Source of the DNA: Sulfurospirillum diekertiae
Lineage (GTDB): Bacteria > Campylobacterota > Campylobacteria > Campylobacterales > Sulfurospirillaceae
NCBI RefSeq assembly: GCF_002162315.1
Contig: NZ_CP021416.1
Span: forward strand, 1-64,000
Direction of reading: 5' to 3'
Length of the DNA stretch: 64,000 nt
Below the pieces are notes generated by a model. It searched no databases. It had not been told where the DNA came from and saw only the letters and a list, made by a program, of their open reading frames with translations. The translations under genes and the position numbers were made by a program. Below, in pieces: positions 21,346 to 27,003 of this stretch; position 1 is the stretch's first letter, and each line of letters opens with the position of its first letter.

Positions 21346-21975
21346 ATGAAAAAATTTTTACAACTTTTATCTTTTTTAGCGCTTTTAGCACCGCTTTCGT
21401 ATGCCGATGATCTAACGAATGGATTAAATGCATATGAGAAGAGTGACTACGGCACTGCCGCTACGTTTTTTCAAAATGCTTGCGAGGCTGATAACGCCGA
21501 AGCGTGTTATAACCTTGCCAATATGTACGACTCAGGGCTTGGCGTCTACAAGGATGATGCAAAAGCCGTTTCACTTTTTACAAAGTCATGCGATGGCGGT
21601 TTTTCAGATGGCTGTTACAATCTTGGCATCATGTATGACACAGGCGAAGGTGTTGCCAAAGATGCCGTAAAAGCATTTACTCTTTTTTATAAATCGTGTG
21701 AAAGTGCTCACACAAGAGGCTGTTACAGCACTGCTCTCATGTACTACAAAGGGGAAGGTGTTCAAAAAGACTATACGAAGGCGTTTGAATTGTTCCAAAA
21801 AACCTGCAATGAAGGGTATGAAAAGAGCTGTTATAACTTAGGTGTTATGTATCGTAATGGACAAGGAGTGGCTAAAAACCTCGATAAAGCTTTAGAACTT
21901 TACAAAAGTGCCTGCGAGCAAAATCTCTCAATTGCATGCGATAAATATGGAAAACTCAGAAATGAGATGCAGTAA
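21346..21975 (+). CDS. secreted Sel1-like repeat protein (Hcp-like, cysteine-rich)
   Basis: 209 residues with signal peptide (KKFLQLLSFLALLAPLSYADD). The mature protein is made of about five 36-residue Sel1 repeats of the pattern ACYNLANMYDSGLGVxKDDAKAVSLFxKSC, each with a Cys pair spaced to form an intra-repeat disulfide as in Helicobacter Hcp proteins. Hcp-type proteins are periplasmic or secreted; penicillin binding has been reported for some. Here a periplasmic scaffold or protein-binding role is inferred. The coding region ends only ten bases before the left att repeat of the small island. Confidence 0.88.
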   Translation: MKKFLQLLSFLALLAPLSYADDLTNGLNAYEKSDYGTAATFFQNACEADNAEACYNLANMYDSGLGVYKDDAKAVSLFTKSCDGGFSDGCYNLGIMYDTGEGVAKDAVKAFTLFYKSCESAHTRGCYSTALMYYKGEGVQKDYTKAFELFQKTCNEGYEKSCYNLGVMYRNGQGVAKNLDKALELYKSACEQNLSIACDKYGKLRNEMQ

Positions 21976-22107
21976 AAGGGAAAACTGGCAGAGAGGAAGG
22001 GATTCGAAATTTTCTTCTTTTTTTGTCATCCTTAAAGTGTCTAAAATCCCCATTACTGCGTTATTTACGAGTTTTTTAAGTTCGTTTTCATCTAATGTAA
22101 ACATCAT
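21928..22107 (-). pseudogene. 5' part of the island integrase gene, separated by integration
   Basis: Minus-strand reading frame starting ATG 22107 (or 22104) after a good ribosome site AGAGGTG. It begins MMFTLDENELKKLVNNAV and continues through the att core as ENFESLPLC, then runs into chromosomal DNA and stops at 21928. At the other end of the island the integrase body is open in the same frame through the identical core (FESLPLCHSS) but has no convincing start codon. Joining the ends, as in an excised circle, gives one continuous integrase with start and ribosome site. I read this as the native 5' end of the integrase, not an independent gene. Confidence 0.75.
21986..22008. repeat. left attachment repeat (attL) of the tRNA-Ser island
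   Basis: 23-bp exact copy of the 3' end of tRNA-Ser(GGA) (see 26916-26938): CCA end, discriminator, acceptor strand, T-stem and T-loop, with no 5' tRNA half attached. With the copy at 26916 it bounds a 4,930-bp insertion. DNA to its left is the chromosomal flank that originally followed the tRNA. Confidence 0.9.
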
Positions 22108-22257
22108 AATTTCACCTCTCTGCTTGTCATATATTATTTTGATTATATCATGTCCTAAAGAGAGAATTATTATATATCCCAAAGTCAGATTTTAAATTTT
22201 AGTTAGAAACTTAGTCTATTGTAATAGTTAATAAAATAATAATATATTTTATTTATT

Positions 22258-22299
22258 ATGTAGTCTATATATGAGTATTTACTAGTATATAGACTACAT
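22258..22299. repeat. perfect 14-bp inverted repeat in the island left region
   Basis: ATGTAGTCTATATA (22258-22271) and TATATAGACTACAT (22286-22299) pair perfectly around a 14-base loop. A partial copy of the arm (TAGTCTAT) occurs at 22212. It could be an operator, an integrase arm-binding site or a replication/transfer hairpin. It lies in the 666-base gene-free stretch (22108-22773), which is otherwise extremely A+T-rich with T-rich tracts and shows no further gene I can support. Confidence 0.6.
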
Positions 22300-22331
22300 T
22301 CGAGAGAGGTAAACTAACACTATAATTATAA

Positions 22332-22362
22332 TTTATTACATTCACTACGTTCATGTAATAAA
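22332..22362. repeat. stem-loop with TTCACTACGTT-type loop
   Basis: TTTATTACAT (22332-22341) pairs with ATGTAATAAA (22353-22362) around an 11-base loop TCACTACGTTC. The loop matches that of the larger hairpin at 25555-25610 (TTCACTTCGTT) at all but one base. Confidence 0.6.
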
Positions 22363-22773
22363 TATATTTATACTCATTAGTTGTACGAAATTTTTTGGTG
22401 ATTTAATCCGATTTTTGTATGTTTTATAGAAAATAAATTTTTTCTCTTATTTTTTCGTTTTCAAATTTATTTCCGTAAAAATTTAATCAGAAAATAAATT
22501 AATGAAAAAATAGTTAATTAATATCATCGAGTTGATTTTTAATTGTACATTACAAAACTCACATGAGAATAAAATAAAGAGATTTCTATAACAATTTTTT
22601 TAATTCTAGTCTTTTGTATTATTTAGTATTTTTCTTGGTGTTTTTTCGATGTTTTTGTGTGTTTTATGATAGTTTATAAAATTATTCATGAAAAATAAAG
22701 ATAGGAACTTTAATTAATGTATAATTTCATATTGATTAAAAAACGAAATCCAATAAAATGTGAAGGTAATGTT

Positions 22774-23832
22774 ATGGAAACAAAAATTAGACAACTTGGT
22801 GAACGTATTCAATCTATGAAAGATAAAATCTTAACAGAAGAAGCAACTAAACATTCTTTTGTTATGCCATTTCTGTCAGCTCTTGGATATGATGTTTTTG
22901 ATCCGACCGTAATTGTTCCTGAATTTACATCTGATATAGGTACCAAAAAAGGTGAGAAAGTGGATTATGCCGTTTTACGTGATGGTAAACCCATCATGAT
23001 AATCGAGGTAAAAAATCATACTGAAAAGTTAGATAATCATAATAATCAGTTAATTAGATATTTTCATGTGACAGATTGTAAATTTTCCATTTTAACAAAT
23101 GGAGTAGAATACAGATTTTTTTCAGATATTGAAGAAAAAAACAAAATGGATAAATCACCATTTTTAGTAATTAACCTTGAAAATATCAGAGATAGAGATG
23201 TTAAGGAATTGACCAAGTTTGCAAAAGATGTACTTGATACAGATACAATTTTACAAATGGCAAATGCTAAAAAATATCATAGAGAAATTCAATCAGTTTT
23301 CCAATCAGAAATTGAACAACCATCTGATGAATTTGTGAAATTTTTCGCAAGAAAAATCACCGATAAAACAATGACAGCAGCGGTTATTGATGAATTTAGA
23401 ACATATATTAAAAAATCTTTTTCAGAAATTTTAAGCGATATTGCAAACGATAAGATACAAGCAATTCAATCAAATCTTTCGACTTCTAAACATGATATAG
23501 ATTTTGAAACGACAGAACAAGAAGAAAAACAATTACCAGAAACAACCGAAGAAGAATTAGATGGTTTCTATATTGTTCGTTCAATTATTGGAGAAACTGT
23601 AGGTTTTCAAAATATATCTTTTAAAGACACAATTAATTATTTTAATATCTTGTATCAAGGTAAAGTTACAAAATGGATATGTAGACTATACTTTAATGGA
23701 AAACAAAAAATAATTGCATTTCCTGACGACAAAGGAACAGAAAACAAAATACCAATTGAATCAATAGATAGTATTTATAATTACAGACAAGAATTAATTG
23801 AGTCTGTATTAAAAAGAAGAGATTCAAAATAA
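22774..23832 (+). CDS. stand-alone type I restriction HsdR N-terminal-like nuclease-fold protein
   Basis: 352 residues. The N-terminal 150 residues match the HsdR-N/PD-(D/E)xK pattern: ATKHSFVMPFLSALGYDVFDP, then GEKVDYAVLRDGKPIMIIEVKNHTEKL, where Asp, Glu and Lys of D...ExK are intact. No helicase domain, methylase or specificity subunit accompanies it. The C-terminal 80 residues (GFYIVRSIIGETVGFQNISFKDTINYFNIL) form a separate domain seen in related orphan proteins. I prefer ATG 22774 after GAAGG over an in-frame ATG at 22717. Likely a defence or nuclease accessory gene of the island; catalytic competence is inferred. Confidence 0.8.
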   Translation: METKIRQLGERIQSMKDKILTEEATKHSFVMPFLSALGYDVFDPTVIVPEFTSDIGTKKGEKVDYAVLRDGKPIMIIEVKNHTEKLDNHNNQLIRYFHVTDCKFSILTNGVEYRFFSDIEEKNKMDKSPFLVINLENIRDRDVKELTKFAKDVLDTDTILQMANAKKYHREIQSVFQSEIEQPSDEFVKFFARKITDKTMTAAVIDEFRTYIKKSFSEILSDIANDKIQAIQSNLSTSKHDIDFETTEQEEKQLPETTEEELDGFYIVRSIIGETVGFQNISFKDTINYFNILYQGKVTKWICRLYFNGKQKIIAFPDDKGTENKIPIESIDSIYNYRQELIESVLKRRDSK

Positions 23833-23835
23833 TCA

Positions 23836-23875
23836 TTTATCCCTCCCCCCCCTTTAGGGGGTTGGGGGGATAAAT
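23836..23875. terminator. C/G-rich convergent terminator
   Basis: TTTATCCC plus a C8 run (23845-23852) pairs with the G5-TT-G6-ATAAA half after a TTTA loop. It is an unusually G+C-rich stem in very A+T-rich DNA, placed exactly between two convergent coding regions (ending at 23832 and 23877). T-rich DNA follows on both strands. The C8/G6 runs may be length-variable. Confidence 0.65.
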
Positions 23876-23876
23876 T

Positions 23877-24556
23877 TTAAATTATTTTTTCGATTTGTTC
23901 AATATCTACAATACTTTTTTTATTTTTAAAACGTGAACTTTCTAGTCTTTCTTTTTCAAGTTTTCTAAAATTTTCTTCGTCAAGTTTTCTAATTTTTTCT
24001 AATTTTTCAAAAACGTTTTTTTCTAAATTTTTATCAATTTCTTCATTGGTTATTTCTTCATGTATTATTTTTTCAAGAACATTTTTTTAAAATTTTATTT
24101 GTTTCATGTTCATTTGTTAATTTGTTTTTATCTTCAGTTGTATCATTTTTTTAGTTCTTCAAATTTTGATAATAATTCATTTTCTTTCTTATTAAAAAAG
24201 TAATAATCGTCCGTTAATTTTTGATTTAAAGAAAAAATTTTTATATCTTTTTCTTTGTTTCTTTGTTCTAAATCTTCAATAAAAAATTTTAAATTTGAAT
24301 AGTTTTTAACAGACTTTATAATGTTTTTTATATCTTCATTTGTTTCTGTTTCAATTTCAATTTTTTGGGTTGTTTTATTACTTAAAAAAGAAGAGTTTTC
24401 ATGTGTTTTTATATTTAAAATCTTAATTTGACTTTGACTTTCTTGTATTCTTTCTTTTAGTTTTTCATTTATTAATTTTGTATGTTTTTGATCTATTGTT
24501 AAATTATCTTCGTTGTGAATTTTTAAACGTTTTTTTTTTATGTCTTCAGTCGTCAA
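23877..24556 (-). pseudogene. coiled-coil protein downstream of the relaxase, broken by two frameshifts
   Basis: Read on the minus strand from a TTG at 24556 that overlaps the relaxase stop, frame one gives 137 residues of charged coiled coil (TTEDIKKKRLKIH...KFEELKK). A T7 run (plus 24146-24152) ends it; with one base fewer the frame continues (NDTTEDKNKLTNEHETNKI) to a second T7 run (24082-24088), and with one base fewer there it continues to a stop at 23877 (...SIVDIEQIEKII). About 225 residues in all. It resembles the helical tail of MOBV relaxases and may be part of that protein or a separate partner. Confidence 0.55.
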
Positions 24557-25482
24557 ATAATCGTTAAATTTTTATACGTTCTTTTTTTGTTTAATTCTTT
24601 CAGTTGTCTATTAAAAAAAGTATAAAAATCTTCTTGATATTGTTTCATGAATTTTTCATGATCTTCTTTTTTGTTAAAATCTAAATTCAAACTATATTTA
24701 TTATTAATATAGTTAAAAGTATTTTTATTAATATCAAAATCATTTTTTTCGTTGTTATATGAACTTAAAAATAAATGAACATGACTTTTATTCTCTGTTC
24801 CTTCGTCTACGTGAATACAAGAACAATAAAGATCATAATTTTTAAAGTATTCATCTTTAAAATTCTTAATTATTATGTTCCATTCTTCTTTTTTTAAATC
24901 TAATTCCTGCATTTCTGGAATTTTTAAAAGAACTTCTTTGACTAGAATTTGATTGTTATACTTACGTGTTTTTTGTTTTAATTCAATCATTTTATTTTTT
25001 AAAGAAATGAAATTTTCTAATGTTTTTAATGTTCTTTTGTCGTGTGATTTTAAATTTTTAACTTTGTGTTTATATACTAAATTATGTAAAATAGTTCCAG
25101 CATTTTTACTTTGTTCCAGCTCCAGTTCCACCATTTCCAGTGGAATTTTTTTTGAAAGTGATGATTTTGAATTTTGAAAGTCTTTTAAAATTTTTTTTCT
25201 TTCATTTTCATCATTTATATTTTCAAATTTTTTTATATTGTCTTTTATATCTTGTTCAATTTTTAATAATAATTCTTCATTTTTCAAAATCGAAATCTGA
25301 AATATAATCATTTTTCGTGTGTTTTTCGTTTGTTTATATGTATTTTTTTCTTCTTCAAAAACACGTAGTGAATGTTTTAAACTTGTTATCAATTGTGAAT
25401 AACAGTTTTTTCGTATTTTGAAAGACTTTTTTCCATTTTTTGTAAAATTTATTTCTTTGTATAAGAATGTATTGTTTCCCAT
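24553..25482 (-). CDS. MOBV-like relaxase (Mob/Pre family)
   Basis: 309 residues. The diagnostic feature is a HUH-type motif, CIHVDEGTENKSHVHLFLSSYN, matching the HxDE...HxHL metal-binding motif III of Pre/Mob relaxases, and LKHSLRV near the N terminus in place of motif I. Such enzymes nick oriT and stay bound to the 5' end to start mobilisation. The start ATG 25482 follows a strong AAAGGAG. The region upstream (25543-25637) holds large inverted repeats in the position expected for oriT. The nicking residue is not certain and the N-terminal half is diverged, so the family call is moderate. Confidence 0.65.
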   Translation of the reverse strand: MGNNTFLYKEINFTKNGKKSFKIRKNCYSQLITSLKHSLRVFEEEKNTYKQTKNTRKMIIFQISILKNEELLLKIEQDIKDNIKKFENINDENERKKILKDFQNSKSSLSKKIPLEMVELELEQSKNAGTILHNLVYKHKVKNLKSHDKRTLKTLENFISLKNKMIELKQKTRKYNNQILVKEVLLKIPEMQELDLKKEEWNIIIKNFKDEYFKNYDLYCSCIHVDEGTENKSHVHLFLSSYNNEKNDFDINKNTFNYINNKYSLNLDFNKKEDHEKFMKQYQEDFYTFFNRQLKELNKKRTYKNLTII

Positions 25483-25542
25483 TTTTTCTCCTTTTTTAAT
25501 TTATAAACTTAATTATAGATTAAAAAATTAGTTGGAAGTAAT

Positions 25543-25637
25543 AACACCTTATATCGACAAACTAACTTTTTTAACACTTCACTTCGTTACGTTAAAAAAT
25601 TAGTTTGTCGAGGTGTTTTTGTTCGATAGAACAAAAA
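25543..25637. other. large inverted repeats upstream of the relaxase (candidate oriT)
   Basis: CGACAAACTAAC...TTAAC (25555-25575) pairs with 25591-25610 over about 20 bp with one bulged C; an outer pair AACACC (25543-25548) / GGTGTT (25612-25617) extends it, and a second hairpin TTTTTGTTC-GATA-GAACAAAAA lies at 25616-25637. The loop is TTCACTTCGTT-like. It sits between the relaxase start and the integrase stop, so it could be oriT or part of a terminator for the integrase. No nic consensus could be assigned. Confidence 0.5.
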
Positions 25638-25644
25638 GAGGAAG

Positions 25645-26938
25645 TTAAATTTTGTAATCAATAGAATCAATAATTTCTTTTTTATTTTCTATGTAAAACT
25701 CTTTTGAATAGGTGTCAAGTGTTAGACTTTTAGAACCTTTATCATGTCCAATAATTTCTTGTATTATATTTACTTTTTCAGGAAATTTATTTGTTAGTTT
25801 TTGTATAAAAGTCCCCCGAAGTGTATGAAAATTCTTCCCTGATTCCTTTGGTATAATTTTTCTTAATTCTTCTAAAATTTTTTTATCATAGTAATTAACA
25901 AATGCTTCATCACTTCTTTCAATTTTTGTCCTTTTGTTGATTCCTCGGTCTTTAAAAATTGGGATTTTAATATTTTTTATTTCGTCATGAAGTGGTATTT
26001 TTCTAATCCCACATTCTGTTTTTGCTTGCGTTAAATCATAATATTTTATATTTGTTTTTACGTCGATTTTTACATCTTCTTTTTTTTAATAAAATAATTT
26101 CACTTACACGCATTCCCGTATATGAAGCAATTTTAAACATATTTATATATTGTTCTTCTAACTCTTTGTTATTAATTAATTTTAGTATTTCTTCGTCATT
26201 ATAATTTTCTTTTATCTTCTTTGTCTCTTTCAAACTCGAAATATAAGAGAAAGGATTTTTTTCAATAATTTCACGTTTTACACAAAAGTCTAAAATCATT
26301 TTTACATAGGTCATTTGATTATTTATCGTGACGTTATCAAGATCTTGTCTTTTTAAATAGTTCTGAAAATCTTGTATATCTTTACCCTTTAAATCAACAA
26401 CAGATTTTTTATCGAAGAATTTTTGTAATTTATTAAAAATTGTTCCATAAACTCTGTAACTTGAATTACTAACTTTTTCACTCTCTTTTTTATAGTTTAA
26501 AAAATGAGGTTCCAATTCAAAAAAATCGGGATAATATGATGTTCGACAGTCTTTTACTTGTCCCATAAATGGTTTTATTGCTTCAATATACTTTAATAAT
26601 TCTTCATCTTTGTCATATTCAAACTCTAATTTAATCCCGTCTTTTTCTAGCCTAAACATATCTTCTAACTCCTTGTCCGTTAATAAATCATAAAATTTTT
26701 TTCTTTTGATTGATTGTTTTAAGTCTTTCGTTTTGAGAGATATTCTATAAGATTTTTTATTAATGTTACGTCTATAATAATAAGTTCCATTTACTCGATA
26801 TAAATGTAAACTATCATAATTTTTAGTCTTTTTTTGAGGTAAGTTGTCATAGTCTCTCTGCTGAACACTCTTAAAGTGAAGAGAATGCCTATTTAATGGG
26901 AGTTTTGTTGAAGAATGGCAGAGAGGAAGGGATTCGAA
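25645..26938 (-). pseudogene. tyrosine integrase body (lacks start, one frameshift)
   Basis: Phage-type tyrosine recombinase of the tRNA-Ser island. The core-binding domain spans EKVSNSSYRVYGTIFNKL...YVKMILDFCVKREII; the catalytic Arg lies in ASYTGMRVSEI. A T8 run (plus 26080-26087) shifts the frame and would end the protein soon after. With seven bases the frame continues to 25645 and includes HTLRGTF (HxxR), IIGHD and the nucleophile region LTLDTYSKEFY, so all catalytic residues are encoded. At the 5' side the frame is open through the att core into the tRNA but lacks an ATG and ribosome site; these lie at 22107. It points away from the tRNA, on the same strand. Confidence 0.85.
26916..26938. 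repeat. right attachment repeat (attR) within tRNA-Ser
   Basis: 23-bp copy identical to 21986-22008 and forming the 3' end of the intact tRNA-Ser. Related short words (CTCTCTGC) occur in both island arms at 22116-22123 and 26854-26861, possibly extra integrase-binding sites. Confidence 0.9.
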
Positions 26939-27003
26939 CCCTCGGTGAGTTGCCCCACACACGCGTTCCAGGCGTGCTCCTTCAACCGCTCGGACACCTC
27001 TCT
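26916..27003 (-). tRNA. tRNA-Ser (anticodon GGA)
   Basis: 88-base class II tRNA with encoded CCA (plus 26916-26918). Acceptor AGAGAGG pairs with CCTCTCT, discriminator is G (serine identity), the anticodon stem CACGC/GCGTG holds loop CTGGAAC with anticodon GGA (plus 26967-26969), a long variable arm follows, and the T-loop is TTCGAAT. It reads UCC and UCU. The small island is inserted at its 3' end and regenerates it intact. Confidence 0.96.

Follow-up and report, generated by a model that had tools for sequence, protein, structure and literature searches.

A putative bacterial integrase family whose gene spans attP and is split upon integration

Self-disrupting integrases have been described as exclusive to archaea in a review of the field (PMC8371274). 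In SSV-type elements (SSV1, SSV2, pTN3 and pT26-2), attP is embedded in the integrase gene close to the 5' end, and integration into a tRNA gene parts Int(N), which holds the promoter and start codon, from the catalytic Int(C) (PMC8371274). The same architecture is found in a locus of Sulfurospirillum diekertiae. The window, which here denotes the whole 64,000-nucleotide stretch of DNA that was analyzed, comes from a genome of 2.88 Mb in a single contig and carries a 4.93-kb island at a tRNA-Ser(GGA) gene. Judging from the two island ends and those of related elements, the tyrosine integrase gene of this island almost certainly spans attP and is intact only when the ends are joined in a circle.

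An integrase gene with an attachment site in its frame

The island is bounded by an exact 23-bp att core, TGGCAGAGAGGAAGGGATTCGAA, present at both ends (Table 1), and no extended similarity was found outside these 23 bp between the flanks of the two copies. Joining the flanks without the island gives a 298-nt sequence that aligns over its full length with an empty site in genome G206, at 91%; empty sites in G123 and G265 match it at 82%. In G056, the matching tRNA-Ser(GGA) site is interrupted by another element. This element, at ~18.2–22.7 kb of contig C1 (L100), belongs to the other sub-group; its integrase body is interrupted and then followed by an IS21-type-like two-gene pair that is shared with G235.

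On the minus strand, both core copies are read as FESLPLC in one and the same frame. At the left end, a frame with a Shine-Dalgarno (SD)-like sequence and an ATG runs for 33 codons into the core, passes through it, and stops at 21928. At the right end, the integrase body contains no ATG, GTG or TTG for 85 codons past the core, and upstream of the core its frame extends only into the tRNA, where the single in-frame GTG lies at 26962. These features agree with the original prediction, which had described a core at each end, a well-started frame entering the left copy, a shared reading frame and a body without a start of its own. Its further claim, that joining the ends gives one continuous integrase, holds across the core, where the in silico junction reads MMFTLDENELKKLVNNAVMGILDTLRMTKKEEN-FESLPLC-HSSTKLPL..., and fails after 333 codons, where this assembly shifts frame at an A-run near 26085.

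Homopolymer assembly error and recent decay are both possible causes of this break, because the neighboring relaxase-like gene is similarly broken and homology continues across it. Both genes are broken at A/T runs of 7–8, and homology spans the breaks in other frames. The integrase protein contains Pfam SAM_5, SAM_4 and integrase domains, and its catalytic domain is homologous to solved tyrosine recombinases in the PDB. The tyrosine recombinase signature R...HxxR...H...Y is represented by aligned GMR, HTLRG, GH and TY motifs. A candidate promoter lies upstream of Int(N) (Table 1), in DNA so AT-rich that promoter scans are uninformative. Within the island cargo, the HsdR-type domain at 22717–23832 stands alone, without the helicase part, and PADLOC gave no match for this protein. 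The HUH-like product of 23877–25482 shows an HVHLFL motif by eye and has no Pfam match.

Table 1. Features of the island and its tRNA target (window coordinates)
Feature	Coordinates	Strand	Basis
Left att core copy (displaced tRNA 3' end)	21986..22008	-	Exact 23-bp repeat; FESLPLC in the Int(N) frame
Int(N): start codon (ATG 22107) and first 33 integrase codons, MMFTLDENELKKLVNNAVMGILDTLRMTKKEEN	22009..22107	-	Homologous to G206 and G414 N-termini
Putative left arm sites: ATGACAA (22130-22124) and AATTATGAT.GTTTACATT (22111-22094, contains the start codon)	22094..22130	-	Direct repeats vs right side, p 0.01
SD-like AGAGGTG ahead of ATG 22107	22113..22119	-	
Candidate promoter TTTAAA-16-TATAAT upstream of Int(N)	22169..22196	-	10/12 consensus matches; weak evidence, AT-rich region
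Cargo protein, HsdR N-terminal nuclease-type domain	22717..23832	+	PF04313, PF13588
HUH-like relaxase or replication protein, spread over three or four frames	23877..25482	-	Homologous from end to end to an intact G248 protein of 540 aa
Int(C), remainder of catalytic domain, other frame after the A-run	25645..26085	-	
Int(C), first part: arm-binding-like domain, core-binding domain, start of catalytic domain	26036..26915	-	Open frame; Pfam SAM-like and integrase domains
Putative right arm sites in the integrase frame: ATGACAA (26850-26844) and AATTATGATAGTTTACATT (26821-26803)	26803..26850	-	
Right att core copy (tRNA-Ser 3' end)	26916..26938	-	Exact 23-bp repeat; tRNA call
tRNA-Ser(GGA), integration target, complete when integrated	26916..27003	-	ARAGORN and Rfam RF00005

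Relatives sharing the layout

Homologues were sought in 397 Campylobacterota genomes, then within the family and then within the order. Homologous integrases lie directly behind tRNA-Ser (GGA, GCT, TGA), tRNA-Asn, tmRNA and possibly tRNA-Met genes, with a frame that is open into the RNA gene. Far ends were located through the displaced copy of the RNA gene 3' end, which yielded 13 elements, the one in the window and 12 others (full set: G000, G235, G056, G056b, G031, G209, G348, G414, G411a, G146, G248, G206 and G029, the last at tmRNA). All 13 far ends comprise an SD sequence, an ATG and 8–35 codons in register with the integrase body, so the layout that was to be sought in other Campylobacterota islands does recur there. 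Hosts belong to the Sulfurospirillum group (the window genome and G209 are of the same genus) and to a Nautiliaceae-like family, and the targets are tRNA-Ser, tRNA-Asn and tmRNA. For the first 11 elements, an ATG with SD opens into the far core in the integrase frame every time (11/11), compared with 1 of 22 for the other two frames.

The frame in which the tRNA 3' end is read differs by group (FESLPLC in the window; PSSLP in G209, G348 and G056b), and each is in register with its own far end. Even in G206, where the element (L032, 5665–10425) points the other way relative to its tRNA-Ser(GCT) and its core is read in antisense, the two ends remain in register. At L066 (G398 C15), the integrase frame is open through the tRNA-Met 3' end with no early start codon, and the far end falls beyond the contig; tRNA-Met is possibly a further target of this integrase type. 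The integrase bodies of G031, G206, G411a and G056b are also broken which, together with the window frameshift, suggests that some copies may be dead. A scan of genome contigs returned three loci, two of them Sulfurospirillum records. Viral contigs gave no relatives with the window protein or the family alignment as queries, and plasmid and phage collections gave distant integrases only and no extrachromosomal copy.

The N-terminal segment of the window integrase is short by itself (33 codons), and none of 2000 shuffles was as good as the match between ELKKLVNNAVMGIL in the window and ELKKLVNSLVLGVL in G206. N-terminal homology groups comprise the window, G206 and G414; G235, G056 and G031; and G209, G348, G056b and G248. 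Across short N-terminal segments, dN is lower than dS in five of six pairwise comparisons, with values that are rough because the segments span only 20–27 codons. Conservation together with dN below dS weighs against chance and against a purely DNA-level constraint. Close homologues neither start downstream of the core nor carry unrelated N-termini, the two findings that the original prediction had named as signs of a shared frame by chance.

Related integrases of the ordinary kind begin at an ATG of their own, and their frames are closed towards the tRNA; they lie behind tRNA-Ser in the g6 genomes (Campylobacter, as inferred) and, in G265, behind tRNA-Ala. No ATG with SD occurs in any frame at the far end of an ordinary island, a control that consists of one resolved element since two of three ordinary islands have no detectable far repeat. 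When mapped onto a 37-integrase tree, the split label requires 2 changes, compared with 12.4 in shuffles, indicating that the trait follows descent; its history could be either one origin with loss or two origins.

All 11 elements tested have direct repeats, often paired, on both sides of the core, lying ~80–140 nt before the far core and 45–95 nt after the near core, with p values from 0/500 to 0.044 in shuffles. Examples include AAAACTATGATACA (G235), TGTCCAACTTTTTGTCCAACTT (G248) and AAATTATGAT(.)GTTTACATT (window). We infer that these repeats are arm-type sites of the integrase. Since the near-side repeats sit inside the integrase frame, they give rise to recurring peptides such as NYDT and CPTFCPT. 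A structural model of the G414 body (mean pLDDT 67.6) has 38 disordered residues followed by a beta-beta-beta-alpha region, predicted to resemble arm-binding domains, with helical core-binding and catalytic regions further on. An arm-binding domain at the N-terminus and arm sites on either side of the core characterize lambda-like heterobivalent integrases, a class with which this family may be comparable. Inverted repeats bordering the core seemed suggestive to the eye but were set aside, as they stood out clearly from shuffles in no more than three to five of the 11 elements.

Family elements measure 4.3–22 kb with 24–34% GC and carry varying cargo, including a MobA/VirD2-like relaxase with Toprim, a Rep_3 initiator, a type IV secretion system coupling protein, HUH-like proteins without a Pfam match, and methyltransferase-like and restriction-like genes. 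By gene content, this is a family of plasmid-like integrative elements.

Proposed one-way latch and alternative readings

As read from the element ends, integration takes the ribosome site and start codon away from the integrase. In the circle, the tRNA-derived core almost certainly links the ribosome site, start and first 8–35 codons at one end with the arm-binding and catalytic domains at the other, allowing the integrase to be made. Insertion into a tRNA or tmRNA gene severs the gene near its 5' end. The promoter would be lost as well and expression would stop, so that integration likely acts as a one-way latch that turns the recombinase off, and the split arrangement probably locks the element in place. 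Excision would need intact integrase in trans, supplied by the incoming circular form of a related element, as has also been proposed for archaeal SSV and pTN3 elements (PMC8371274). Taken together, an attP-spanning integrase family that is split at integration and latched thereby is very likely the best explanation of the data. It is also reasonably probable that this is a bacterial latch independent of the archaeal one, with the attP core and arm sites in the integrase 5' coding region, operating in either orientation and at tRNA or tmRNA genes, with excision by related circles in trans.

An alternative is that the gene is split but not silenced: the tRNA promoter would drive transcription of the body, translation would begin at an internal or non-standard start, and an Int(C) without the arm-binding domain would support excision, giving two forms, one per direction. 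An ATG with an SD-like sequence does lie ~78–96 codons past the core, behind the arm-binding-like domain, in G000, G414, G413, G031 and G348, which could allow some Int(C) synthesis in the integrated state. Int(C) is apparently expressed in pTN3 elements (PMC8371274), and tRNA promoters drive int in ICEKp1 (PMC13023037). However, this internal start is not conserved, being absent or without an SD in G056, G209, G109, G248, G146 and G410, and its product would be without the predicted arm-binding domain, which makes the alternative unlikely.

It is far less plausible that the integrase starts within the tRNA gene, by tRNA-int read-through in the integrated state, with the far-end start secondary. 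In-frame GTG codons do occur inside the tRNA in the window, G209 and G056b, as do ATG or TTG codons in G146, G410, G411a and G248, but mature tRNA is not translated, and the tRNA side holds no ATG, GTG or TTG in G235, G056, G414, G413, G348, G109 and G331, where start codons are also absent for 28–88 codons past the core. Equally hard to sustain is a chance frame in AT-rich DNA with the true start elsewhere: the window N-terminal piece has only 33 codons and its integrase is frameshifted, yet all 13 elements are in register against 1 of 22 control frames, N-terminal peptides are conserved, and ordinary relatives are without the pattern.

If the latch reading is true, it would mean that recombination control lacking a directionality factor has evolved convergently, from a different integrase group. 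Annotation pipelines that see integrated copies alone will call such integrases start-less, truncated or pseudogenes, and joining element ends ahead of gene calling would expose them. Self-silencing integrases could also serve as stable insertion tools.

Comparison with known systems

The original prediction had held that bacterial attP sites normally lie beside int and not inside it. This calls for one qualification: att sites inside the integrase gene are described for phage Mx8 of Myxococcus xanthus and for Streptococcus rumA ICEs (PMC6070905, PMC4701971). In these, the C-terminus alone is altered: the 3' end is exchanged, and the integrase is modified but retains its start. The rumA ICEs moreover use serine integrases (PMC6070905, PMC4701971). 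The Islander paper is among those mentioning Mx8 with att inside int and a changing C-terminus. The present family does not follow the Mx8-type layout, as its core lies 8–35 codons from the start codon.

Other bacterial systems share parts of the proposed control. In ICEclc and ICEKp1, the far end likewise drives int only in the circle, whereas the promoter alone is switched and the int coding sequence is whole in both states (PMC13023037). In the integration-dependent immunity of mycobacteriophage BPs, attP likewise sits within a regulatory gene and integration alters the protein product, although there it is the repressor that is cut, at its 3' end (PMC4557955). Within the open-licence literature, we found no earlier case of a bacterial integrase split at the N-terminus, and this is the first bacterial family found there in which integration deprives the integrase of its N-terminus and start.

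The closest likeness is to the archaeal SSV-type elements, and it is one of architecture. Neither the window protein nor that of G235 matches the Phage_integr_3 domain (PF16795), indicating that these integrases are not members of the SSV-type family. The bacterial cores are 17–23 bp, compared with 40–50 bp in SSV-type elements, and the bacterial family differs further in its arm-site-like flanking direct repeats, its additional use of tmRNA as a target, and the opposite orientation of one element. The best reading of these comparisons is that the family represents a bacterial, independently evolved counterpart of the SSV-type 'suicidal' integrases.
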